Shown here piece by piece: positions 7,369-20,536 of a DNA stretch of 30,498 nt. Position 1 is the stretch's first letter, and each line of letters opens with the position of its first letter. This DNA comes from a virus, in the IMG/VR virus record IMGVR_UViG_3300044953_000078, positions 1 through 30,498 of that record. One strand, 5' to 3'. Under the pieces are notes generated by a model, which made no database searches, was not told the DNA's origin, and saw nothing but the letters and a program-made list of their open reading frames with translations. The position numbers and the translations under genes were made by a program.

Positions 7369-8142
7369 TTAATTCATTGCATTTAACAATGGATTGTTGA
7401 GAGTTGACTCAATCCATTGCTTCGCTTTGTTGAAGTATTCTGGATCACTTTCGATTCCAATATATTGACGACCAGTGTTAAGACAGGCAATGCAGGTAGA
7501 TCCAGACCCCATACAATTATCCAGAATTATCTCACCTGGATTGGAGTAAGTTTTGATGAAATACTCAATCATTGCCACTGGTTTTTGTGTAGGATGAAAC
7601 TTCAAAGGATCATCGTTATTAATGACAGAAAACCGTTGAATATCACGAGGATACCTGTCAGTTGTCGTACCATCGTTTCCGAATGTCTTGGTAACATGAT
7701 TGTAGTTGCGTTTCTTATCTGGTTCTGGAATATTATCCTTTGGTTTAACAGCACCAAATGGTTTGTGCCCAGTTGTCTTTTGGGGATTATATGTGGGCAG
7801 TTTGCGATAGAAAACCAAAATGTTCTCGTGTGCTTTCATTGGCATCTTTTTCGCATTGAGATGCCCAGTTGCCTTATTCTTCTCCCAGATCCACTCATAA
7901 CGGAAATCTTTGAGATTTGAACACGCAAGAATCTTATCAAATGGAGGCTGTGCTGTTAGAACAATCGCACCATTTTTTTTCACGATGCGATAGTATTGTT
8001 CCCATAATTTATCGAAGGGAATAAGCGTATCCCACTCGTTCTGCGTTGAACCATATGGAAGATCAGCAAAGATCATATCCACACAATCATCAGGAAGTGT
8101 GGACATAATCTCAATACATTCGCCTTGGAATATTTGATTCAT
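7369..8142 (-). CDS. DNA methyltransferase, N4/N6 type, 257 aa
   Basis: Transfers a methyl group from S-adenosylmethionine to adenine-N6 or cytosine-N4 in DNA. Motif IV is DLPYG (residues 27-31, a DPPY variant), near the N-terminus in FADLPYGSTQNEWD. Motif I, the AdoMet-binding loop, is DNCMGSGST in the C-terminal third, followed by GRQYIGIESDPEYF. This order (IV before I) is the beta class of the N6_N4_Mtase family. HPTQKP before motif I is typical. The length is normal for a solitary phage methyltransferase, and no restriction enzyme lies beside it. The start overlaps the helicase stop as ATGA, so the two are coupled. Likely role: protection from host restriction or epigenetic control; target sequence unknown. 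Confidence 0.9.
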   Translation of the reverse strand: MNQIFQGECIEIMSTLPDDCVDMIFADLPYGSTQNEWDTLIPFDKLWEQYYRIVKKNGAIVLTAQPPFDKILACSNLKDFRYEWIWEKNKATGHLNAKKMPMKAHENILVFYRKLPTYNPQKTTGHKPFGAVKPKDNIPEPDKKRNYNHVTKTFGNDGTTTDRYPRDIQRFSVINNDDPLKFHPTQKPVAMIEYFIKTYSNPGEIILDNCMGSGSTCIACLNTGRQYIGIESDPEYFNKAKQWIESTLNNPLLNAMN

Positions 8143-9323
8143 CGTCTTACCACACTCACAGCAGGTTCTCCTTTCTCAAAGATAGTATTCACAACTGCTT
8201 GCACGGAGCGAGCAGTGCTGATGCCAACTTTATCATACACTGGCACACAAACCAGTCCAAACTTCTTGGATTCATCGCCAAGTCTAATCACTCGCCCGAT
8301 TGACTGAGACAGACCCACATAGTCCATATTTCGCATAAACAGCACTGCTTCCAATCCAGACACATTGATGCCTTCAGATAGGATACTATGATGAAGAACA
8401 ACGAACTTCTTGGATGATTCTTTGCCCCAGGCATTAAGAGTGTCAAAGAACACTTCACGATCCACCTTCTTACCATCAATCACTGCGCCAGTCTTGGATG
8501 TAATCATCATCCAAGAATATCCACGAAGTTGCAGTTGCAAACAGAAATCAGATTCTGACACCAAACCCACAATTTGTTTGGTGCTGCGAGCACAAATCAA
8601 AACCTTTTTAACGCTTTGGTCGTCAATCGTTTTCAGCAGATGTTCAACATCACGCTCAAAAATCATCTGACGATCTTGCACCATCGGCAACTGCTTGACC
8701 ACAACTTTCGGGGGCAGAATGTAACCTTGCTCTACCAGTTCAGGTGCAGGAACCTGACAGATCACCTGACCATAAACCTCAGGCATGTTCATACCTGGTT
8801 TAGAAATAGTCAGAGAATGTTTAGGAGTCGCAGTAAAGAAGTAGCAACGGTCAGCATTAGCACTGAAATGCTCTGTTGCGGGAAAAAAGTGTCGCTGAAC
8901 GCTGTTATGTGCTTCGTCAAAGTAAATCGTATGCACATCAATTCCAGACTTCTGAATACGATTCAGAGAGTTGTAAGTGGTGAAGATGATACGATTGCGC
9001 TTGTATGTTTGCACTGCCCAATCATAGATTCCATCAGGATCAGTAGTAGATTCGTGATGTGTCTCTCCACTATGCACATGAAGCACACGAACCATAGGGT
9101 CAGTGATATGTTCCAGAAACTCAGCAGAGAGTTGTTCTGCAAGCAAAATGCGTGGAGCAACAACTACAACAGTTTGTGGAGTTTCTGACTGAAACTGACG
9201 CAGACAATCATAGATCATCGTTAGAGTTTTCCCCGAACCAGTCGGTTTAATTACCTGACCTTTGTTGTGCCGTTGCATAGCAGCAACAGCGCGATGTTGA
9301 TGAGGACGAAGTTGAATAACCAC
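8139..9323 (-). CDS. SF2 DEAH-box helicase, UvsW-like, about 394 aa
   Basis: ATP-dependent helicase. Motifs in order: an RPHQHRAVAAM start (Q-motif-like region), Walker A PTGSGKT, the Ia region VVVAPRILLAEQ, motif II DEAH in YFDEAHNSVQ, motif III FTATP, and motif VI QSIGRVIRLG near the end. The layout resembles T4 UvsW and related cyanophage helicases, which remodel forks and recombination intermediates, but it is shorter than T4 UvsW. The open frame reaches 9404, but its first codons lie across a transcription terminator (9358-9387), so the true start must be downstream. GTG at 9323 (VVIQLRPHQ) is the best guess, without a good ribosome-binding site. TTG at 9359 or GTG at 9356 are less likely. 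Confidence 0.85.
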   Translation of the reverse strand: MVIQLRPHQHRAVAAMQRHNKGQVIKPTGSGKTLTMIYDCLRQFQSETPQTVVVVAPRILLAEQLSAEFLEHITDPMVRVLHVHSGETHHESTTDPDGIYDWAVQTYKRNRIIFTTYNSLNRIQKSGIDVHTIYFDEAHNSVQRHFFPATEHFSANADRCYFFTATPKHSLTISKPGMNMPEVYGQVICQVPAPELVEQGYILPPKVVVKQLPMVQDRQMIFERDVEHLLKTIDDQSVKKVLICARSTKQIVGLVSESDFCLQLQLRGYSWMMITSKTGAVIDGKKVDREVFFDTLNAWGKESSKKFVVLHHSILSEGINVSGLEAVLFMRNMDYVGLSQSIGRVIRLGDESKKFGLVCVPVYDKVGISTARSVQAVVNTIFEKGEPAVSVVRR

Positions 9324-9357
9324 GAATTGCTTGACGCAACGAAATACAATATACACC

Positions 9358-9387
9358 AAAAAAGTCCACCATGGGAAAATGGTGGAC
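9358..9387 (-). terminator. intrinsic terminator, GTCCACCAT stem
   Basis: A perfect 9-bp stem (9379-9387 with 9364-9372) has a 6-base loop and six U residues at 9363-9358 on the minus strand. It ends the early operon that begins at 11842 and separates it from the helicase-methyltransferase pair. One of the best intrinsic terminators in the window. Confidence 0.85.
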
Positions 9388-9407
9388 AGTTTACAAACTG
9401 GCACAAA

Positions 9408-9515
9408 TTAAACAAGTTTTGTCTTTGCGATTGGAAGTAATCCACCTTGCATCCAAATTCGAGCCGACTCTACAAATTTAATCCAAGTTTTTCCATTCAA
9501 CGGAAGTATTTTAAT
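9408..9515 (-). pseudogene. coding-like remnant without start codon, 35 codons
   Basis: Reading KILPLNGKTWIKFVESARIW onward to TAA at 9408, this frame has balanced protein-like composition but no ATG, GTG or TTG; an ATT at 9515 stands where a start might be (ATT AAA ATA). It overlaps by 19 bases the end of the DUF218-like remnant in another frame. It may be the 3' end of a gene whose front was lost, or a gene whose start mutated. Not recognised as a family. Confidence 0.35.
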
Positions 9516-9650
9516 ACATCACCACCTTCACTGGATACAAAAATTTTAGCATCAGGGGTGTTCATTAGCAAGTTGAATACATTTATTTGCTCGATTTAAT
9601 CCACCACCAAGGTGTAGAATTAATTTCTTATTTATTCTGCTGATCTCCAT
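9497..9650 (-). pseudogene. frameshifted remnant of a YdcF/DUF218-like gene
   Basis: From ATG at 9650 the frame reads KKLILHLGGGLNRANK, then QLANEHP, and stops at 9552. Removing one C from the CCCC run (9555-9558) lets it continue DAKIFVSSEGGDVLKYFR to a stop at 9497. Joined, this resembles the N-terminal half of the DUF218 (SanA/YdcF/ElyC) fold: a hydrophobic strand ending GGGLNR, an alpha helix, then a strand with SSEG. Those domains are about 150-200 residues, so two thirds is missing. It follows the DUF4385 gene with overlap. The family call is from motif memory. Confidence 0.45.
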
Positions 9651-10126
9651 TTTTTTCTCATTCTTTGATATATAGGATTCGCTGCTGCCATATCTCTCAC
9701 ATGCTTGAATACTTGTGCTGCCTGTGATTTTTCGTTAGTAAGTGCATCAGGTTCTTGTGGTAATACTGCGACACCTCCACGATCACCAGTGTGATAATAA
9801 GGAGGCTTAGTAGCGTATTTTCTGCCAGTTTTGTGATTTGCATAACGACGAGCACGAGTGAATCCCATTTCTAGAAACTTACGACACATATCTGCACCGA
9901 TAAAATCACCAGCATTCAGATATTCTTCAAACATGAAATAGATTTTCCATGATGATTTCTTAGCGGTTTTTACATTTTTAAATCGCCAATACTTTCCAAT
10001 AATGTCTGTATAAGGGCGAACAATAAGAACACCCTGTTCCCCTCTGCCAATGCGATACTTTCTTCGATTGTCGGGTTCTGTAAAATCCAGAGCCTTGTAA
10101 TCAAGTTCATAATTAAATTCTTTCAT
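9632..10126 (-). CDS. DUF4385 family protein, 164 aa
   Basis: Matches the DUF4385 pattern as I know it: NYELDYKALDF at the N-terminus, YRIGRGEQGVLIVRPY, a WRFK segment, IYFMFEEYLNAGDFIGADM, then FLEMGFTRARRYANHKTGRKY and a charged C-terminus. The family occurs in bacteria and in T4-like cyanophages; its function is unknown. Length is about normal for the family and no motif is lost. It is the last complete gene of the early operon starting at 11765; its 3' end overlaps the decayed DUF218-like frame. The ribosome-binding site is weak. Confidence 0.8.
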   Translation of the reverse strand: MKEFNYELDYKALDFTEPDNRRKYRIGRGEQGVLIVRPYTDIIGKYWRFKNVKTAKKSSWKIYFMFEEYLNAGDFIGADMCRKFLEMGFTRARRYANHKTGRKYATKPPYYHTGDRGGVAVLPQEPDALTNEKSQAAQVFKHVRDMAAANPIYQRMRKKWRSAE

Positions 10127-10129
10127 AAT

Positions 10130-10192
10130 CTAGTTTTGGTCATCAATATTCAAACACTTCTCAAACTTACTTCGAAGTTCATTAAGTTTCAT
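10130..10192 (-). CDS. possible micropeptide, 20 aa
   Basis: ATG at 10192 is preceded by a good GAGGGG seven bases upstream and encodes MKLNELRSKFEKCLNIDDQN before TAG. Only the ribosome-binding site and the position just before the DUF4385 gene support it; it could be a coupling peptide or spurious. Confidence 0.3.
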   Translation of the reverse strand: MKLNELRSKFEKCLNIDDQN

Positions 10193-10246
10193 TTCTGCCC
10201 CTCATTTACCTGTGAAGATTGCACCCAACGCAGGCATCAGTATTCA

Positions 10247-10441
10247 TCAATCATAGACATTCTGTTTCTGTTGGATGCGGTCCAGATAATGATATAAAGT
10301 TACTTTGGAATACTTAAACTCCTTAAAACGACGTGAATTACTCTTCTCCATCTTGTGTAGCATGTTAATCCATTGGTAGCGACTATCTACCACCCAACCA
10401 TAACGGCGTTCATCATGAAACTGATCAAATATCGAATTCAT
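10247..10441 (-). CDS. basic hypothetical protein, 64 aa
   Basis: Not recognised. Starts MNSIFDQFHDERRYGWVVDS, with a middle rich in Lys/Arg (KMEKSNSRRFKEFKYSKV) and aromatic residues, ending with a helix YHYLDRIQQKQNVYD. The charge suggests nucleic-acid or partner binding, but this is inference. The start overlaps the stop of the zinc-ribbon gene as ATGA, so it is co-translated. Confidence 0.55.
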   Translation of the reverse strand: MNSIFDQFHDERRYGWVVDSRYQWINMLHKMEKSNSRRFKEFKYSKVTLYHYLDRIQQKQNVYD

Positions 10442-10698
10442 TTTAAGTAAGCATCTGACATTGAGTGTATCACAGGACGTGCTTCTGCGGGGTACACTGT
10501 GCTACAATCAGGACATTTCCAGTATTCCATTTCCCATGTTTCTAGATTACGACCACCCAGTAATCGAGAATGAAATGCACCAGATTCGCAAGTATGCTTC
10601 AATGCATCAGAAATCTCTGCGTCTACTAAACTACACTTGCAGTTTGGACAGTTTCTCCAAGATGTAGGTTTATACAAATGCCTGAATGTAAGTCCCAT
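10438..10698 (-). CDS. zinc-ribbon-type protein, 86 aa
   Basis: Two cysteine pairs frame the protein: CPNCKC at about residues 17-22 and CPDC at about 62-65, with a further Cys at about 37. The spacing fits a zinc ribbon/knuckle of the CPxC...CPxC type. Between them lie HLYKPTSW upstream and a GRNLETWEMEYWKC strand leading into the second knuckle. Such small proteins usually bind zinc and contact nucleic acid or protein; the target is unknown. The start overlaps the stop of the 29-residue membrane peptide (TAATG). Confidence 0.65.
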   Translation of the reverse strand: MGLTFRHLYKPTSWRNCPNCKCSLVDAEISDALKHTCESGAFHSRLLGGRNLETWEMEYWKCPDCSTVYPAEARPVIHSMSDAYLK

Positions 10699-12252: not shown

Positions 12253-13212
12253 TTATGATTTTGATTCTTCTGGTGTTACAATTTTAATCTGATTTGGTGT
12301 CGTTGTCGAGTACTTAGAAATCTTCTGAATACCTTGAATATAGGATGTTTCTCTCCAAAAGTCCATACCCTTACACTTATCCAGCACATACTGCGACAAA
12401 ACTTTTGTTGGATCTTTGGATGTGGATTTGAGTTCTGATCGAACTTCGTGCATATCCTCAAGACCATAAGTTTCCATATCACGTTCACGATTGGAATTAC
12501 CCAGATTCTCAAATGTGTGCTCAAATGGTTCTTCACCCAGAAACTCATACAGTTTCTTGAATGTTTCTTCTGGACGATTCACCAAATCCTTGTATTCCAC
12601 ATAATGAAAACGATCACCAAATCCTGCATTAATACCTTCTAATGTTGCATTCAGTGATTGTCCAAGAATACCATCGGGACCTGCAATGTATTCACAACGA
12701 TTATCATCATTAATCGGAATATTCAGTTTCACCAGTTGTTCATCAATGAAGTTAATGCGTGGATTACCTTCTTTATAGGGATTACGACGAATCATTGTAA
12801 TCATTGAGGTTAAAATCTCCTCAATATCTCTTACGGGACAAATGATTTTTGCTCTTTGTTTAATGTATCCCTCAATGTAGGGCACTCGTGCAGTCCAGGC
12901 TCTGTTCTTATCAATCACAACTGGTTGCTCTACATCACCATAAAAATAATCAATTACACTTCCAAGCATTCGATTGACTTGATCTGGTTTTGGATATCCA
13001 TGATACAGTTCGTCTTGCAATAAATGATTCTCAATCACAAACATTGTGGAAAGAACTGGACTGGAGGGACCAGAATAAAATCTTGGATTTTGATTTAGAA
13101 TAGAAGATAGCAAAGTGCTTCCTGAACGTGGAAGACCAGCCATAAAATAATGTGTCTTTTTTAATCCAAGATCCTCAGGAGACATAAACTGAGATAAAAA
13201 TTCCAAGTTCAT
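12253..13212 (-). CDS. sulfotransferase, PAPS-dependent, 319 aa
   Basis: Transfers sulfate from PAPS to a hydroxyl acceptor. The 5'-phosphosulfate loop is GLPRSGSTLLSSILNQNP (residues 27-44); the 3'-phosphate motif is CPVRDIEEILTSMI (R..7..S, about residues 126-139). Both match Sulfotransfer_3/TPST-like enzymes. Other shared blocks are DKNRAW and INFIDEQLV. It is about half identical to the second sulfotransferase (17761-18630). The start ATG at 13212 lies 47 bases after the Cys-rich fibre gene, with no promoter of its own seen, so it is probably co-transcribed with that fibre. Acceptor unknown: fibre Tyr/Ser/Thr, fibre glycan or host surface glycan. The frame stays open 19 codons past the TAA. 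Confidence 0.9.
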   Translation of the reverse strand: MNLEFLSQFMSPEDLGLKKTHYFMAGLPRSGSTLLSSILNQNPRFYSGPSSPVLSTMFVIENHLLQDELYHGYPKPDQVNRMLGSVIDYFYGDVEQPVVIDKNRAWTARVPYIEGYIKQRAKIICPVRDIEEILTSMITMIRRNPYKEGNPRINFIDEQLVKLNIPINDDNRCEYIAGPDGILGQSLNATLEGINAGFGDRFHYVEYKDLVNRPEETFKKLYEFLGEEPFEHTFENLGNSNRERDMETYGLEDMHEVRSELKSTSKDPTKVLSQYVLDKCKGMDFWRETSYIQGIQKISKYSTTTPNQIKIVTPEESKS

Positions 13213-13259
13213 AGTAATGACGTAGTTACAAGTAAGTATAATCTATGTATGAAAATAAA

Positions 13260-15368
13260 TCAAGTGTTGGTTGCGATTCCAACGTGGGCTTCCAATGCTT
13301 CTAATCTGATATTAAGTGATGTGTTTTCTGCATCAAGTTCTTTGATTGCATTGACCAGGACTGGAATCATATATTCGTGAGTAAGTCCTAAATTCTCATC
13401 ACCATTCATGAAGTTGGTAATGACTGGAGCATCACCCTCTAATTCCATTACCTCTTGAGCACTGAAACCGTATCTTACCGTTTCATCAGTGATTTCATTG
13501 GTTTCACGGTCTTTAAATGAGTATTTGATTGGATTAATGCCTTTTAAGAAATCTCGACCGTGTGGAACACAACCAAAAACATGTTTGTCTCTCACGTCAG
13601 ATGTAACAGTCCAAGCAATCTTAATCGCAGCACAAGTATGATCATTATTACCCATAATAATGCAGTTAGAACCCGTCGTAAGGTTGATGAGACCTGATGG
13701 TGTATATGTTGTGGTTCCTGAATTTTGTCCAAAAGCAAGATTATTACTTCCAGTGCTGTTATTAATTCCTGCATACTTACCTAAGAAGTTATTATTACAT
13801 CCAGTGGTGTTATAAAATCCTGCATTATAACCTAAAAAGTTATTAGCAATTCCAGTGGTGTTACAAAATCCTGCATAAGTACCTAAGAAGTTATTACAAC
13901 TTCCAGTGGTGTTAAAACGTCCTGCATCAATACCTAAGAAGTTATTATAACTTCCAATGGTGTTACAATATCCTGCAAGACGACCTAAGAAGTTATTATG
14001 ACTTCCAGTGGTGTTACAAAATCCTGCACTATTACCAAAGAAGTTATTATGAATTCCAGTGGTGTTACAAAATCCTGCATAAGCACCTAAGAAGTTATTG
14101 TGAGTTCCAGTGGTGTTACATAATCCTGCACAACGACCAAAGAAGTTATTATGACATCCAGTGGTGTTACAAAATCCTGCACAACGACCAAAGAAGTTAT
14201 TATAACATCCAGAGCAGTTACAATATCCTGCATAAAGACCAAAGAAGTTATTAGAATTTCCAGTGGTGTTAAAACTTCCTGCCTGCAGGCCAAAGAAGTT
14301 ATTAAAATTTCCAGTGGTGTTACAATATCCTGCAACACAACCTAAGAAGTTATTATGACATCCAGTGCAGTTAAAAGTTCCTACATTCTGACCAAAGAAG
14401 TTATTATGACTTCCAGTGGTGTTACAATATCCTGCATAACGACCTAAGAAGTTATTATCACTTCCAGTGGTATTACAACGTCCTGCTTCACGACCTATGA
14501 AGTTATTAAAATTTCCAGTGGTGTTAGAACGTCCTGCTTCACGACCTATGAAGTTATTAAAACATCCAGAGCAGTTACAAAATCCTGCACAACGACCAAA
14601 GAAGTTATTATAACTTCCAGTGGTGTTATAACGTCCTGCATAAGTACCTATGAAGTTATTATGACTTCCAGTGCAGTTACGAAATCCTGCACTCTCACCT
14701 AAGAAGTTATTAAGACATCCAAGGGTGTTACAATATCCTGCATAACGACCAAAGAAGTTATTAAAACATCCAGTGGTGTTACAACGTCCTGCACTCTCAC
14801 CTAAGAAGTTATTATGATTTCCAGTGGTGTTACAACGTCCTGCACTCTGACCTAAGAAGTTATTATTACTTCCAGAGCAGTTACAAAGTCCTGCATAAAA
14901 ACCTAAGAAGTTATTAAGACTTCCAGTGGTGTTACAACATCCTGCATACTGACCTAAGAAGTTATTATTACATCCAGTGGTGTTACAACGTCCTGCATTC
15001 ACACCAAAGAAGTTATTATTACTTCCAGTGGTGTTACAACATCCTGCATAAAGACCTAAGAAGTTATTATGACATCCATTGGTGTTAGAAAATCCAGCAT
15101 TATTACCTAAGAAGTTATTATGACTTCCAGTGGTGTTAGAACGTCCTGCACTATTACCTAAGAAGTTATTATGACTTCCAGTGGTGTTACAACGACCAGC
15201 ATTAGTACCTAATCTAAGATTATTACAAGCACCTCCATTAACCTCAGTGAATGTAATTGCAGAACCACCAGTGAAAGTTGTCGTAGAAGCACTACTTACG
15301 ACCTTTGTAGTATCATCAACTGTGATTCTGTTCGCAAATTGTGATAATTCTCTGTTATTATTAGCCAT
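13260..15368 (-). CDS. YadA-like repeat fibre with S74 chaperone domain, 702 aa
   Basis: Probable trimeric tail/virion fibre. Residues 1-30 (MANNNRELSQFANRITVDDT) are a module shared with two other fibres. Residues 67-542 are 28 tandem 17-residue coils of NNF(L/F/I)GxxAGxCNTTGxx type, similar to YadA-head-like left-handed beta-rolls. The C-terminal 113 residues are a peptidase S74 intramolecular chaperone: SDVRDK at residue 590 (expected Ser-Asp self-cleavage), INPIKYSFKDRET, YGFSAQEV, then a coiled coil (VNAIKELDAENTSL). Known S74 domains fold the trimer and are cut off. Eighteen of 28 coils have Cys at position 11. Late promoter at 15400; a sulfotransferase follows. Confidence 0.85.
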   Translation of the reverse strand: MANNNRELSQFANRITVDDTTKVVSSASTTTFTGGSAITFTEVNGGACNNLRLGTNAGRCNTTGSHNNFLGNSAGRSNTTGSHNNFLGNNAGFSNTNGCHNNFLGLYAGCCNTTGSNNNFFGVNAGRCNTTGCNNNFLGQYAGCCNTTGSLNNFLGFYAGLCNCSGSNNNFLGQSAGRCNTTGNHNNFLGESAGRCNTTGCFNNFFGRYAGYCNTLGCLNNFLGESAGFRNCTGSHNNFIGTYAGRYNTTGSYNNFFGRCAGFCNCSGCFNNFIGREAGRSNTTGNFNNFIGREAGRCNTTGSDNNFLGRYAGYCNTTGSHNNFFGQNVGTFNCTGCHNNFLGCVAGYCNTTGNFNNFFGLQAGSFNTTGNSNNFFGLYAGYCNCSGCYNNFFGRCAGFCNTTGCHNNFFGRCAGLCNTTGTHNNFLGAYAGFCNTTGIHNNFFGNSAGFCNTTGSHNNFLGRLAGYCNTIGSYNNFLGIDAGRFNTTGSCNNFLGTYAGFCNTTGIANNFLGYNAGFYNTTGCNNNFLGKYAGINNSTGSNNLAFGQNSGTTTYTPSGLINLTTGSNCIIMGNNDHTCAAIKIAWTVTSDVRDKHVFGCVPHGRDFLKGINPIKYSFKDRETNEITDETVRYGFSAQEVMELEGDAPVITNFMNGDENLGLTHEYMIPVLVNAIKELDAENTSLNIRLEALEAHVGIATNT
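13743..15170 (-). repeat. 28 x 51-bp tandem coding repeats
   Basis: 51-bp units encode 17 residues each. Framework codons (NNF.G..AG..NTTG) are nearly frozen even at synonymous sites, while positions 6-7, 10-11 and 16-17 vary, mostly as NNT codons. The repeats are a substrate for recombination and copy-number change. Not a CRISPR array: no spacers, and they are in frame. Confidence 0.9.
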
Positions 15369-15399
15369 AAGAAGACACTATACTCTTGTAATTTATTTT

Positions 15400-15407
15400 T
15401 ATTTATA
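15400..15407 (-). promoter_or_regulatory. late promoter element TATAAATA
   Basis: Exact TATAAATA, 31 bases before the ATG at 15368, the same distance as for the 392-residue fibre. Confidence 0.7.
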
Positions 15408-15430
15408 AGAATAAAGACTTGATAGCAAAG

Positions 15431-15451
15431 GGGGGGTCATGAAGACCCTCC
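15431..15451 (-). terminator. hairpin after the 392-aa fibre gene
   Basis: GGAGGGTC/GACCCCCC arms (15444-15451 with 15431-15438, one mismatch) and a 5-base loop, then a short T-run (TTTGC). It lies 28 bases past the stop. Weak U-tract, so moderate efficiency. Confidence 0.5.
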
Positions 15452-15478
15452 TTAATTTTTGATGTTTTTGAATCTAGT

Positions 15479-16657
15479 TCAAGGAGCATCAAGTCTTGCT
15501 TCGAGTTCTGCAACTTTTGCGGAGAGTTCCTTGATTGCGTTAACAAGAACTGGAATTAATTGTGAACTTGTAACTTTGAGATTCTCTGGGTCTTGTACAT
15601 CTGCGATGACATGAGGATTACCTTCGAGTTCAACAACTTGTTGTGCTCTAAAACCATATCTCAATGTATCATCGGAAACTTCACCAGACTCACGATTCTT
15701 GAATTGGAACTTAATTGGTTCGAGACTTTGTATAAATTCAAGACCATGAGGAACTTCACCAAGAATGTTCTTATCTCTTTCATCGGAGGTAATTGTCCAG
15801 TCAATCTTAATGTACGATTTTGTATGAGCATTATTGCCAATAACAATGATGTTTGAAGTTGCACCCATAGCAACAGATTCACTAAAATTAAGAACTGCAT
15901 CAGTTCCAGCAGATTGTCCAATTGCAATATTATTTCCTCCCGTAGTGATTCCGAATCCAGATAATCTACCAATTAAAACGTTGCTGCTTCCAGTGCTAAC
16001 ATTATCACCAGATTGATATCCTAAGACAATATTATCATTACCAGTAGTATTACTTGTTAATACTTCAAAACCAATTCCAATATTTGCTGCGCCCGCTGCA
16101 TTAACAACTCCTGCACTTCTTCCAATAAAAACATTATCAGATCCAGTGATTACTCTACCTGCACTTGCACCAATTGCTACATTTTGATTTCCACTTATTG
16201 CTGCTTGTTCGTGACCAATTTGAACGTTATAAATTCCACTTCCAGTAACATATGAGTTGGAAAGAGATCCGATACCAATGTTTAATCCCTTGATCGGAAG
16301 TGCAGTAACACCAGTACCAAGAGTTGAAATACCACTTACATTAAGTTGTTGTGATGTCAAGTTAGTTGTTGAGGTTACACCAAGAGTTGAAATGCCACTT
16401 ACATTAAGTTGTTGTGATGTCAAGTTAGTTGTTGAGGTTACACCAAGAGTTGAAATGCCACTTACAACTAAACTAGAAAGAGTTGGATTTAAAACTGTTG
16501 CTGCACTAACTGTAACTCCTCCAACTGCGAGAGATCCGAAAGTACCAACGCCGGTAACATTCAGTGAGGCGATTGTTGATGCAAAAGATATTGTCTTGCT
16601 AGTATCATCAACTGTCACGAAACTTGCAAGTTGTGATAATTCTCTGTTATTTGCCAT
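15479..16657 (-). CDS. tail fibre with S74 chaperone domain, 392 aa
   Basis: Shares the N-terminal module (MANNRELSQLASFVTVDDTS) and the S74 C-terminus with the 702- and 605-residue fibres. Residues about 30-130 are a small beta region with a perfect 21-residue tandem repeat; residues about 140-275 hold six or seven 16-17-residue coils of N(V/I)xIGxxxGxxxTTG type, the same beta-roll idea but without Cys and without NNF. The S74 domain begins at SDERDK (residue 291), the expected Ser-Asp cleavage site, and ends in a coiled coil (VNAIKELSAKVAELEARL). It has its own late promoter (16689) and a terminator (15431), and no modifying enzyme in its unit. Confidence 0.85.
   Translation of the reverse strand: MANNRELSQLASFVTVDDTSKTISFASTIASLNVTGVGTFGSLAVGGVTVSAATVLNPTLSSLVVSGISTLGVTSTTNLTSQQLNVSGISTLGVTSTTNLTSQQLNVSGISTLGTGVTALPIKGLNIGIGSLSNSYVTGSGIYNVQIGHEQAAISGNQNVAIGASAGRVITGSDNVFIGRSAGVVNAAGAANIGIGFEVLTSNTTGNDNIVLGYQSGDNVSTGSSNVLIGRLSGFGITTGGNNIAIGQSAGTDAVLNFSESVAMGATSNIIVIGNNAHTKSYIKIDWTITSDERDKNILGEVPHGLEFIQSLEPIKFQFKNRESGEVSDDTLRYGFRAQQVVELEGNPHVIADVQDPENLKVTSSQLIPVLVNAIKELSAKVAELEARLDAP
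16321..16446 (-). repeat. 2 x 63-bp tandem coding repeat
   Basis: Two adjacent 63-bp units differ at one base, with a partial third unit from 16447. They encode a 21-residue unit (STLGVTSTTNLTSQQLNVSGI). A recent slip or unequal crossover in the fibre shaft. Confidence 0.85.
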
Positions 16658-16688
16658 GGGTTCAGACAGTAAATTCCTTATTTAAAGT

Positions 16689-16696
16689 TATTTATA
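16689..16696 (-). promoter_or_regulatory. late promoter element TATAAATA
   Basis: Exact TATAAATA, 31 bases before the ATG at 16657. The whole stretch 16658-16697 closely matches the leader of the 605-residue fibre (20500-20537). Confidence 0.7.
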
Positions 16697-16714
16697 ATGT
16701 GTTTCTCTTATATT

Positions 16715-16741
16715 AAAAAACCCTCAGGTTTTCTGAGGGTT
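16715..16741 (-). terminator. intrinsic terminator of the glycosyltransferase operon
   Basis: A perfect 9-bp AACCCTCAG/CTGAGGGTT stem (16733-16741 with 16719-16727), a 5-base loop and a T6 run on the minus strand. It starts 5 bases past the stop of the glycosyltransferase gene. Confidence 0.85.
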
Positions 16742-16746
16742 CTAAT

Positions 16747-17712
16747 TTAGTTTCCGAAACCTTTAATTGCATTTCTGGATGATTTAATGTTTTTTAGTCC
16801 TGTAACATCAACAACTTTACCATCATCACCAATTGCCTCTACAATCTCATCAAGATTATAAAGTTCTATGTCTTCGGTATAAGGATATTCATGTTCCTGA
16901 CCAAGAAAGTCAAAGTCAAAATAAAGACTTCCGGGAAGTTTGAAGTTTCCTGGTTGCTTGGCAGTAATGTTCGTATGAAGATCATGTCCAAATACAACTG
17001 GACTGGTGCCATTCCAAAGAACAACCGAAGGAAGATTCATTGCAGCAGCTGCGTGTTGAAGACAACTATCAATCAAAATACGTTTATCACTATTCGCAAT
17101 TAAACTGAACAACTCCATGTTTGTCATGGGTTGATCCACGATGTGTGCATTTACAAGTTTATCACTGTGCTGCTTACACACCTGATAGATTGTATATTTT
17201 TTATGATACTTATCTACAATCTGTTGAGCGAGATCAAAGGGCATATCCCGTGCCCAACAATACTTCCGTGATTGATCATTATGAATACCACCATTGGTAT
17301 GAATTACCATCACTGGTTTGTTTCCTTGACGCCAATGCTTCTCTGAAATTTCTCTTTGAAGTTTGTTGAATATAATCTCTGGTTGTTCTCCATTGTATTC
17401 AAGACCATACATCTTACACCAAGTTTGTGCAAGAGGAAGTCTCTTGTGAATATGATCAGTAGTGAAATAAGGTTCGTTATGGAAAATCAACGAATTTTTA
17501 TTCTCGATGTACTCCTGATAGAAGTATTGAGTTCCACCAAGTTGATAAACTCGATCAATCCAGTTAAGATTAATGAAAGCTTCTATATAGACACAAACAA
17601 CAATCAGTTTGCGATCTGGATGATTATTTTTGATGGCTTTGGCAACAGCAATTGCTGCAATATGCTTTCCAAGACCACCTTGAACATGAAAGATGCAATA
17701 TTTTTCAGACAT
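16747..17712 (-). CDS. GT-B glycosyltransferase, GT9-like, 321 aa
   Basis: Probably transfers a sugar from an ADP- or nucleotide-activated donor. The N-terminus FHVQGGLGKHIAAIAVAKAI is the Rossmann-like first fold with GGLG; the C-terminal half has ILIDSCLQHAAAAMNLPSVV followed by LWNGTSP, matching the donor-binding motif of heptosyltransferase-type GT9 enzymes (D/S...H.A.A...P.V...G). Its length fits the family. It is the last gene of the 605-residue fibre operon, after the second sulfotransferase (49-base gap), and ends at a strong terminator. Acceptor unknown: the fibre, another virion protein, or host envelope glycan. Confidence 0.75.
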   Translation of the reverse strand: MSEKYCIFHVQGGLGKHIAAIAVAKAIKNNHPDRKLIVVCVYIEAFINLNWIDRVYQLGGTQYFYQEYIENKNSLIFHNEPYFTTDHIHKRLPLAQTWCKMYGLEYNGEQPEIIFNKLQREISEKHWRQGNKPVMVIHTNGGIHNDQSRKYCWARDMPFDLAQQIVDKYHKKYTIYQVCKQHSDKLVNAHIVDQPMTNMELFSLIANSDKRILIDSCLQHAAAAMNLPSVVLWNGTSPVVFGHDLHTNITAKQPGNFKLPGSLYFDFDFLGQEHEYPYTEDIELYNLDEIVEAIGDDGKVVDVTGLKNIKSSRNAIKGFGN

Positions 17713-17760
17713 TTAAATTACTCGATAATAAGGTCATTATAGATCATGAAGAAAAAATCT

Positions 17761-18630
17761 TCAAGTTGGATCAACAATATTGACTTTGAATCCTTTTTGT
17801 TTCCAAAATTCCATTTGCTTGTAGCGACCAAGAATGGATGGTGGAAGAACATCTTTTGGATTTGCCGAGGTTTTTTTCAGTTCCTTGCGAACCTTGTGCA
17901 TATCAGCAAGACCATAGGTATTTAGGTCACTCTCCTCATGCTTGTTTAGAATGTTTGAGAAATCATGTTCATAAGGTTCCTCTTCCAGAAACTCATAAAT
18001 CTTTTGAAGAGTTTCCTCTGGATCTGAGATGAGATCATTGTAATCAACAAAATGCATATATTTTTCAGCACCTTGTTGAAGACCAGTGATCACTGCATTT
18101 ACAGATTCAAAAAGAATACCACCAGATGCTTCTGCAACTTGAATGCAACGATTCTCGTCATTCAAAGGAATGTTTTGTTTTACAAGTTGCTCATCAATAA
18201 AATTAATTCTTTCTTGTCCATCCTGAAAAGGGTTGCGACGAATCATTGAAATAAAAGAAGTCAGAATCTCATCAGTATCTCTTATTGGACAGATAATTTT
18301 CGGATTCTCAATGTTCAAATATTTTTGGATTAAATCAAGTCTTGCTGGCCATGCACGATTCTTATCAAAGATAACTGGTGCAGTAGTGTCTCCATACCAC
18401 TGATATGCAATATTTCTAATAATATCACTTGCTTGTTGTGGTTTTGGATAGGTATGATAAAGTTCATTGTTCCACAGATGATCAATGATTGTGTGCATCA
18501 TTGACAGAACTGGACTTGATGAACTTGAATTAAATCGTGGATTCTGATTCAAAAGAGACGAAAGGAGGGTGCTTCCTGAACGTGGAAGACCCCCCATGAA
18601 GTGAAATTTCTTTTGTGATGACAAAAACAT
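17761..18630 (-). CDS. sulfotransferase, PAPS-dependent, 289 aa
   Basis: Second enzyme of the same family. The 5'-phosphosulfate loop GLPRSGSTLLSSLLNQNP is at residues 14-31, the 3' motif CPIRDTDEILTSFI at about 115-128, and DKNRAW, MIRRNP and INFIDEQLVKQNIP blocks are shared with the 12253-13212 protein. It lacks the N-terminal 13-residue and C-terminal about 20-residue extensions of that copy. It lies 51 bases downstream of the 605-residue Cys-rich fibre and upstream of the glycosyltransferase, so the three probably form one late operon. No Shine-Dalgarno sequence is obvious. Acceptor unknown. Confidence 0.9.
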   Translation of the reverse strand: MFLSSQKKFHFMGGLPRSGSTLLSSLLNQNPRFNSSSSSPVLSMMHTIIDHLWNNELYHTYPKPQQASDIIRNIAYQWYGDTTAPVIFDKNRAWPARLDLIQKYLNIENPKIICPIRDTDEILTSFISMIRRNPFQDGQERINFIDEQLVKQNIPLNDENRCIQVAEASGGILFESVNAVITGLQQGAEKYMHFVDYNDLISDPEETLQKIYEFLEEEPYEHDFSNILNKHEESDLNTYGLADMHKVRKELKKTSANPKDVLPPSILGRYKQMEFWKQKGFKVNIVDPT

Positions 18631-18681
18631 AGTTTTAAGATAATCAATTCAAATTATATATAATCTTTTTTAAGATGTCAA

Positions 18682-20499
18682 TCAGAGGCCAACGTGTGCT
18701 TTGATTGCAACAATTTCTGCTTTCAGTGCTTCATTCTCTGCATTGAGTTCTTTGATTGCGTTTACAATAACAGGAATGAAGTGGTCATGAATAATACCCA
18801 GTTTATCTGGGTTTACATTCTGAGTAATAACATTATCTTCACCCTCTGCTGCAAGAACTTCCTGAGCACTGAAACCGTATCTTACAGTTTCATCAGTGAT
18901 TTCATTGGTTTCACGGTCTTTAAATGAGTATTTGATAGGATTAAGTCCCTTTAAGAATCCTAGACCATGTGGAACTTCTCCATAAACACATTTGTCTCTA
19001 ATATCTGATGCAACACTCCATGCGATTTGAATACATGCAAGAGTATGAGACGCATTACCCATAATAATGCAGTTAGAACCCGTCGTAAGGTTGATGAGAC
19101 CTGATGGTGATATTCCTGTGGTTCCTGAATTTTGTCCAATTGCAATATTATTACTTCCAGTGGTGTTACAACGTCCTGCATAAACACCAAAGAAGTTATT
19201 ATAAGTTCCAGTGGTATTACAAAATCCTGCCTGCGCGCCAAAGAAGTTATTATGACATCCAGTGGTATTACAACGTCCTGCATAACGACCAAAGAAGTTA
19301 TTATAACATCCAGAGCAGTTACGAAGTCCTGCACAACGACCAAAGAAGCTATTATTACTTCCAGTGGTGTTACAATATCCTGCATAAATACCTAAGAAGT
19401 TATTAGCAACTCCAGTGGTGTTACAACCTCCTGCATTAAAACCAAAGAAGTTATTATAACATCCAGTGGTGTTATAACGTCCTGCATTCAGACCTAAGAA
19501 GTTATTAAAACTTCCAGTGTTGTTACAACATCCTGCACAACGACCTAAGAAGTTATTAAAACGTCCAGTGGTATTACAACGTCCTGCATAACGACCAAAG
19601 AAGTTATTATAACATCCAGTGGTGTTATTACGTCCTGCACTCTCACCTAAGAAGTTATTATGACATCCAATGGTGCTAGCAAATCCAGCAAAGTCACCCA
19701 TGAAGTTATTACAACTTCCAGTGGTGTTACAAAATCCTGCACAACGACCAAAGAAGTTATTATGACATCCAGTGGTGTTACAACGTCCTGCCTGCGCGCC
19801 AAAGAAGTTATTATAACATCCAGTGGTGTTACAAATTCCTGCAAAACGACCTAAGAAGTTATTATGACTTCCAATGGTGTTACAAAATCCTGCATTCGAA
19901 CCAAAGAAGTTATTATGAGTTCCAGTGGTGTTACAACGTCCTGCATTCTCACCAAAGAAGTTATTATAACATCCAGTGGTATTACAACGTCCTGCATAAA
20001 GACCTAAGAAGTTATTATAACTTCCAATGGTGTTAGAAAATCCAGCATTATGACCAAAGAAGTTATTATGAGTTCCAGTGGTGTTACAAAATCCTGCACT
20101 AAAACCTAAGAAGTTATTATGATTTCCAGTGATGTTACAACGTCCTGCATAAAAACCAAAGAAGTTATTATAACTTCCAATGGTGTTACAACGTCCTGCA
20201 TAAACACCAAAGAAGTTATTATTATTTCCAGTGGTGTTACAACGTCCTGCACTAGCACCAAAGAAGTTATTATGACTTCCAGATGTTAAATTTAAACCAG
20301 CACAATTGCCAAGTGAGTTATTATTTGATCCAGTCGTTAAGGTATTGGGACCTCCTGCGCTAGACCCCAGAGCAACACTGCCACTCGTTTGTTTAACTTG
20401 ACCAGTAACACTGATTGAATTGGAAACGCTTACAGCATTTGTGGTATCATTAACTGTAACAAGACCAGCAAATTGTGAAATTTCTCTGTTGTTTGCCAT
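18682..20499 (-). CDS. YadA-like repeat fibre with S74 chaperone domain, 605 aa
   Basis: A sister of the 702-residue fibre. N-terminal module MANNREISQFAGLVTVNDTT; residues 77-450 hold 22 coils of the 17-residue NNF(F/L)GxxAGxCNTTGxx type, 17 with Cys at position 11; one degenerate coil (NNSLGNCAG) precedes them. The S74 domain begins at SDIRDK (residue 498), with KYSFKDRETNEITDETVRYG identical to the 702-residue copy, and ends in an Ala/Glu-rich coiled coil. Expected to trimerise, with the chaperone cut off at Ser-Asp. A late promoter at 20529 heads an operon with sulfotransferase and glycosyltransferase. Confidence 0.85.
   Translation of the reverse strand: MANNREISQFAGLVTVNDTTNAVSVSNSISVTGQVKQTSGSVALGSSAGGPNTLTTGSNNNSLGNCAGLNLTSGSHNNFFGASAGRCNTTGNNNNFFGVYAGRCNTIGSYNNFFGFYAGRCNITGNHNNFLGFSAGFCNTTGTHNNFFGHNAGFSNTIGSYNNFLGLYAGRCNTTGCYNNFFGENAGRCNTTGTHNNFFGSNAGFCNTIGSHNNFLGRFAGICNTTGCYNNFFGAQAGRCNTTGCHNNFFGRCAGFCNTTGSCNNFMGDFAGFASTIGCHNNFLGESAGRNNTTGCYNNFFGRYAGRCNTTGRFNNFLGRCAGCCNNTGSFNNFLGLNAGRYNTTGCYNNFFGFNAGGCNTTGVANNFLGIYAGYCNTTGSNNSFFGRCAGLRNCSGCYNNFFGRYAGRCNTTGCHNNFFGAQAGFCNTTGTYNNFFGVYAGRCNTTGSNNIAIGQNSGTTGISPSGLINLTTGSNCIIMGNASHTLACIQIAWSVASDIRDKCVYGEVPHGLGFLKGLNPIKYSFKDRETNEITDETVRYGFSAQEVLAAEGEDNVITQNVNPDKLGIIHDHFIPVIVNAIKELNAENEALKAEIVAIKAHVGL
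19150..20271 (-). repeat. 22 x 51-bp tandem coding repeats
   Basis: The same 51-bp unit as at 13743-15170, with long near-identical stretches shared between the two arrays. Variation is again concentrated in codons 6-7, 10-11 and 16-17. Confidence 0.9.
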
Positions 20500-20528: not shown

Positions 20529-20536
20529 TATTTATA
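20529..20536 (-). promoter_or_regulatory. late promoter element TATAAATA
   Basis: Exact TATAAATA, 29 bases before the ATG at 20499. Confidence 0.7.

Follow-up and report, generated by a model that had tools for sequence, protein, structure and literature searches.

Two fibre genes built of cysteine-bearing repeats in a viral DNA fragment are each followed directly by a gene for a sulfotransferase (ST), and the question raised by this locus is what such an enzyme modifies beside a fibre. The fragment (the window, 30,498 nucleotides) is a 30.5 kb piece of a viral record. It was assigned to a T4-like cyanophage because its UvsW lies near that of cyanomyoviruses (the best matches, with 60-80% identity, come from 26 of about 415 cyanophage records) and because it carries the late promoter TATAAATA. 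A search of phages for closely related DNA gave no match to the window.

Gene order and promoters of the fibre locus

On the minus strand, the first unit consists of a late promoter, fibre605, a sigma-70-type promoter, ST289, a GT9-like gene and a hairpin (Table 1). It is followed by a late promoter, fibre392 and a hairpin, and then by a late promoter, fibre702 and ST319. The open reading frames and coordinates confirmed the observation of an earlier note that both Cys-coil fibres of the window have an ST directly downstream, with gaps of 51 nt (fibre605-ST289) and 47 nt (fibre702-ST319). The GT9-like gene, which follows ST289 after 48 nt, was omitted there. The description of fibre392 was also correct: it has neither Cys nor a coil array, and it lies between its own late promoter and a hairpin.

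Table 1. Features of the fibre locus in window coordinates
Feature	Position	Strand	Description or evidence
T4-type late promoter TATAAATA before fibre605	20529..20536	-	
fibre605	18682..20499	-	N-terminal anchor-like MANNREISQ, 22 coils of 17 aa, S74-like C-terminus
Perfect sigma-70-type promoter TTGACA-17-TATAAT, fibre605-ST289 gap	18653..18681	-	12/12 consensus
ST289, PAPS sulfotransferase, Sulfotransfer_3	17761..18630	-	Pfam, homologue conservation, AF2, PDB folds
GT9-like (heptosyltransferase-type) glycosyltransferase	16747..17712	-	Sub-cut-off profile matches, homologues
Terminator-like hairpin and T run after the GT9-like gene, closing the unit	~16715..16740	-	Read from sequence
Late promoter TATAAATA before fibre392	16689..16696	-	
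fibre392, paralogous S74 fibre without Cys, coil array or ST downstream	15479..16657	-	
Late promoter TATAAATA before fibre702	15400..15407	-	
fibre702	13260..15368	-	28 coils of 17 aa, S74-like C-terminus
ST319, PAPS sulfotransferase	12253..13212	-	Pfam, homologue conservation

Seven late-type TATAAATA sites exist in the window, versus 1.5 expected, and the T4-type late promoters stand before the three fibres, not before the STs. The claim that no promoter separates fibre and ST fails for fibre605 and ST289, where the 12/12 sigma-70-type site (18681-18653) ends 22 nt before the ATG of ST289; for fibre702 and ST319, only TTGATT-17-TATACT (9/12) is found at the equal distance upstream. Because ST289 has a sigma-70-type promoter of its own, the proposal of a purely late module is not supported. 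The whole window contains only two such 12/12 sites. The second (11842-11814, minus strand) lies upstream of several small genes in a row, which may be an early block. In cyanomyoviruses, early genes are thought to be driven by host sigma-70 and late genes by NATAAATA (PMC2984593).

Repeat structure of the fibres

The three fibres have a common N-terminus, MANN(N)RE(L/I)SQ, and an S74-like C-terminus. With a Peptidase_S74 cut-off of 22 bits, fibre605 (24.9) and fibre392 (31.5) score above and fibre702 (21.6) just under it; the Pfam match of fibre605 is to PF13884 (2.5e-5). The Ser motif of S74 autocleavage, SDxRxK, occurs in the fibres as SDIRDK, SDVRDK and SDERDK, so that cleavage is predicted. 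In fibre605 and fibre702 the coil unit is exactly 17 residues long, NNFFGxxAGxCNTTGxx. The numbers of 22 and 28 Cys-bearing coils given before are right as coil totals, and at least one Cys is present in 21/22 coils of fibre605 and 23/28 of fibre702, at the usual position in 17 and 18 coils, respectively. The single-sequence AF2 model of the fibre was poor (pLDDT 61; coil core 75-86) and all beta, and its comparison with the PDB gave no match.

The codons of the coils were unusual. Across the six variable codons per coil of both genes (13260-15368 and 18682-20499), 278/300 end in T versus 176 expected from the window codon usage, and Arg is encoded by CGT in 36/36 cases versus 25% elsewhere. 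This NNT signature is seen in both fibres, each of which has a T fraction of 0.93, the highest among 101 coil-fibre genes, whose median is 0.60. At framework positions, each residue is almost always encoded by a single codon. No reverse transcriptase of a diversity-generating element was found within the window.

Family and fold of the sulfotransferases

ST289 and ST319 are 53-54% identical to each other and match Pfam Sulfotransfer_3 at 1.7e-17 and 1.3e-15 (64.8 and 58.7 bits, cut-off 27), which predicts sulfotransferase activity for both. The P-loop of the 5'-PSB (PRSGST) and the 3'-PB (R...S) are present, with R17, G19, R117 and S125 conserved. In 56-61 phage homologues with identities down to about 24%, there is little or no variation at the Arg, Gly and Ser that bind PAPS and at several further residues, and R17, S39, P40, R92, W94, R117, S125, R161, Y212, H222, D235 and H245 are 94-100% conserved in 135 phage and bacterial members. 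The Pfam matches and these motifs bear out the earlier assignment of the two proteins as PAPS sulfotransferases.

The AF2 model of ST289 was confident (pLDDT 94.3), and its nearest PDB folds were tyrosylprotein sulfotransferase (TPST; TM about 0.6), with heparan 3-OST and others close behind. By sequence and fold together, TPST1/2 are the nearest solved structures. The PAPS motifs are alike, and a Lys of the ST aligns with the active-site Lys of TPST. In contrast, the identity is 13-18%, and the alignment puts Ser38 in the place of the catalytic Glu of TPST (GEE motif; Glu100 in human TPST1). Next to Ser38 is the pair Ser39-Pro40, common to phage and bacterial members, in an SSPV-type motif found throughout the family. 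Without the catalytic Glu, ST289 was not classed as a TPST. A TPST-like enzyme that sulfates tyrosines of the fibre directly would suit the nearest structures and the frequent Tyr at variable coil positions 7, 10 and 17. This reading is nevertheless improbable, given the Ser in place of the catalytic Glu and the lack of any coil position with a fixed Tyr; fold similarity, moreover, does not determine the substrate.

Linkage of sulfotransferase and fibre genes in phages

IMG/VR was searched in two ways, with an ST alignment and with a Cys-coil pattern at the DNA level. The ST alignment retrieved at least 586 relatives. Among the contigs found by the coil pattern alone, 65/87 also encode the ST family, including 42/49 of those of at least 30 kb and 10/10 of at least 100 kb; the contigs of these sets are fragments and share descent. 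In contrast, among about 415 cyanophage records with related UvsW, no more than 10 carry an ST, a comparison that is rough because these records are partly redundant. Genes of psbA/psbD type were present in 14/36 tested records, which points to cyanobacteria as hosts.

An ST lies directly after a fibre in 19/72 ST clusters versus 4.5 expected by position (about 4-fold), and 2000 permutations inside the same loci reached a maximum of 12. These results, together with the 65/87 contigs, support the earlier expectation that the two gene types are linked beyond chance in other phages. They do not support a general rule that each Cys fibre is followed by an ST: the next gene after 84 non-redundant coil-fibre genes is an ST in 18, a GT2-like gene in 14 and GT9 in 1, and some gene of an ST/GT cassette in 33/84. 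Contigs rich in coil fibres often carry one ST.

The Cys coils were considered as a cue for the ST and rejected, since an ST is next in 7/36 Cys-rich and 11/48 Cys-poor fibre genes (P = 0.79); kelch-type and Cys-free coil fibres also adjoin STs, so the tie to Cys coils drawn before is not upheld. The phage STs form two clades, one with coil fibres and GT9, the other with kelch-like 'YGYFGGG' fibre genes and no adjacent GT9. In one locus (L007) kelch-type fibre genes flank an ST and are coupled to it, with gaps of 4 and -1 nt, and Marine virus AG-345-L05 has one ST from each clade.

Passive co-location, in which a host-recognition cluster gathers unrelated accessory genes and the ST has no functional tie to the fibre, is consistent with the hypervariability of this region in T4-like marine phages (PMC7029224) and with the ST of S-SCSM1, which lies outside the fibre region. 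It is very unlikely in view of the adjacency above within-locus permutation and of a gene order that recurs among contigs (below).

Two further observations were made in these loci. Marine virus AG-345-O18 encodes two very Cys-rich proteins of 758 and 290 aa near its ST (L002:10016-13161), which differ from coil fibres. Genes for 2OG-Fe(II) oxygenases, which would suit hydroxylation of fibre residues, lie near ST and kelch-type fibre genes in L001, L002, L003, L007, L012, L020 and L021.

The glycosyltransferase cassette and its promoters

The commonest neighbour of a phage ST is not a fibre but GT9, which lies within two genes of the ST in 59/72 clusters versus 17 expected (2000 within-locus permutations). 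The GT9-like protein of the window matches PF01075 (9e-4), TIGR02193 (7e-4) and, weakly, RfaC, all below cut-off, and has homologues of 59-67% identity. It contains the C-terminal nucleotide-sugar motif of GT9, D-S-x3-H-A-A-A ... W-N-G-T-S-P, which is invariant in A2. A sequence search against solved structures gave no match. It was not classed with the bacterial autotransporter heptosyltransferases (BAHT; Aah/TibC), since no such NCBIfam model was among its matches up to E 0.1.

Besides GT9, the cassettes hold further glycosyl-, methyl- or carbamoyltransferases. In one recurrent order, the fibre is followed by GTA (GT2-like, 213 aa), GT430 (GT2-like with a methyltransferase, 430 aa), GT9 and ST; in another, it is followed by ST, a small protein, GT9 and a NodU-like carbamoyltransferase. 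GT430 was searched for in phages and no match was found. Across cassettes, 12/12 sigma-70-type promoters precede the first gene in 5/86 cases versus 3/963 for other genes (P = 1.5e-4); the signal is significant at 12/12 and 11/12 but lost at 10/12, and is therefore not claimed as general.

These features bear on the main rival to fibre sulfation, according to which ST, GT9 and their companions act early in infection on a surface glycan of the host (LPS or capsule) and thereby keep progeny or other phages from adsorbing. A need for receptor and fibre specificity to co-evolve would then hold the genes beside the fibre. Phages of the P22 or Sf6 type have O-antigen modification genes linked to their tailspikes. 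The perfect promoter before ST289 and its counterparts in other cassettes fit early expression, given the use of host sigma-70 promoters proposed for early cyanomyovirus genes (PMC2984593), and the GT9, GT2-like, methyl- and carbamoyltransferases look like surface-glycan enzymes; glycosyltransferases of the pelagimyophage host-recognition cluster were interpreted as O-chain modifiers (PMC7029224). Against it, the promoter signal is limited to a minority of cassettes, no membrane-spanning stretch was found in the cassette enzymes, leaving the core cassette without a membrane protein, and the kelch-fibre ST clade has no adjacent GT9. With the bacterial loci described next also counting against it, modification of the host glycan is considered rather unlikely.

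Bacterial relatives precede giant adhesins

The most telling result came from bacteria, which were scanned with one genome per species. ST relatives of 31-36% identity were found in Gamma- and Betaproteobacteria, cyanobacteria, Planctomycetes and others. A protein of at least 700 aa is encoded directly downstream of the ST in 23/39 evaluable clusters, versus 2/130 for background genes of comparable size from these loci (Fisher 6e-16), with a median gap of 30 nt and some overlaps. These large partners are giant surface adhesins: DUF4347 is present in 17/23 and the type V signal ESPR in 3, and most others have Ig-like, cadherin, fn3, RTX or type V secretion features. A homologue of the phage-type GT9 was found in only 1/80 bacterial ST loci.

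Since bacterial STs directly precede giant repeat adhesins, the association with a fibre or adhesin is a property of the ST subfamily. In cells and viruses alike, the constant partner of the ST is thus a repetitive adhesive protein, and the sugar enzymes vary. The same type of neighbour in bacteria argues against passive co-location, and adhesin neighbours with GT9 in a single locus argue against modification of the host glycan.

The bacterial loci held two other features. In Burkholderiales (L331-L333, about 7995-10678), the bacterial ST nearest to the phage ST (48% identity) adjoins a protein of 612-617 aa, which in L331 unites an Asp/Asn beta-hydroxylase and a second sulfotransferase domain; a divergent gene of about 910 aa lies beside it. 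This fusion gives the idea that such STs may sulfate hydroxylated side chains. Upstream of the ST-adhesin pair in L336, L339, L348, L353, L355, L381 and L384 there is a trio of 173-181 aa proteins, and those tested have the phage Tail Collar domain PF07484.

Discussion

The sulfotransferases stand beside fibres in viruses and beside giant adhesins in bacteria, so that sulfate decoration of the fibres is probable. The gene order of the window, the family and its intact PAPS motifs, the recurrence of the linkage among phages and the adhesin linkage in bacteria are direct observations. ST289 and ST319 are best regarded as members of a PAPS sulfotransferase subfamily for repetitive adhesive proteins, which most likely sulfate the adjoining coil fibres (probability about 0.55). 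Points that weigh against this reading are the small share of coil-fibre genes with an ST next (18/84), the often single ST of contigs rich in coil fibres, the greater constancy of GT9 as a phage neighbour, the early-type promoter of ST289 and the fragmentary contig sets of shared descent. As far as sequences can tell, fibre sulfation is favoured, on a side chain or on an attached sugar. A broader proposal, a shared 'adhesin sulfotransferase' subfamily of bacteria and phages, defined by the SSPV-type motif and sulfating giant adhesins as well as cyanophage fibres, is put forward tentatively, at slightly less than even odds.

Under the favoured reading of fibre sulfation, the STs would be active in the cytosol and would use the neighbouring fibre as acceptor before virion assembly. 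Sulfate would be placed on a repeat side chain, or on a sugar that the GT9-like enzyme has attached. PAPS may come from the cyanobacterial host; cyanobacteria make PAPS. Early transcription from the sigma-70 promoter and late read-through from the fibre promoter could make the enzyme ready when the fibre is made. The sulfate may then tune adhesion or mask the fibre.

In a literature search, no paper was found that connects phage fibres or DUF4347 adhesins with sulfotransferases. To our knowledge, there is no precedent for a sulfated phage fibre, or for a giant bacterial adhesin that a linked enzyme sulfates. The nearest known arrangement is the pair of BAHT and autotransporter, in which aah and tibC are adjacent to their adhesin genes. 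There, as proposed here, a cytosolic modifier is paired with a repetitive adhesin that it decorates (Aah/AIDA-I, TibC/TibA; PMC4358343), and the phage cassette too has a heptosyltransferase-like gene. In contrast, the linked enzyme here is a sulfotransferase with a putative acceptor, and the GT9-like protein lacks a match to a BAHT model; BAHTs have an iron-finger Cys cluster and form dodecamers (PMC4358343).

Other phage systems are less similar. Phage-encoded glycosyltransferases modify virion proteins of mycobacteriophages (Freeman et al. 2023, cited in PMC12619734), but in the account given by PMC12619734 the modified parts are capsid and tail tube rather than fibres, and sulfate does not appear. 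Pelagimyophages, also T4-like marine phages, combine fibre genes and glycan enzymes in one variable island, but the main text has no sulfotransferase and assigns the glycosyltransferases to the host O-chain (PMC7029224). Phages of OM43 carry Sulfotransfer_3 genes of the same Pfam family, similar to S-SRM01, which the relevant part of PMC10580990 treats as auxiliary genes of 'unclear' function without describing a fibre linkage.

If the favoured reading is true, sulfation would be a virion modification, placing a charged, host-supplied group on the part of the phage on which host range and adhesion in the sea depend. It would also provide a testable role for a large family (more than 580 IMG/VR matches), whose function in phages is called unclear where PMC10580990 discusses it.
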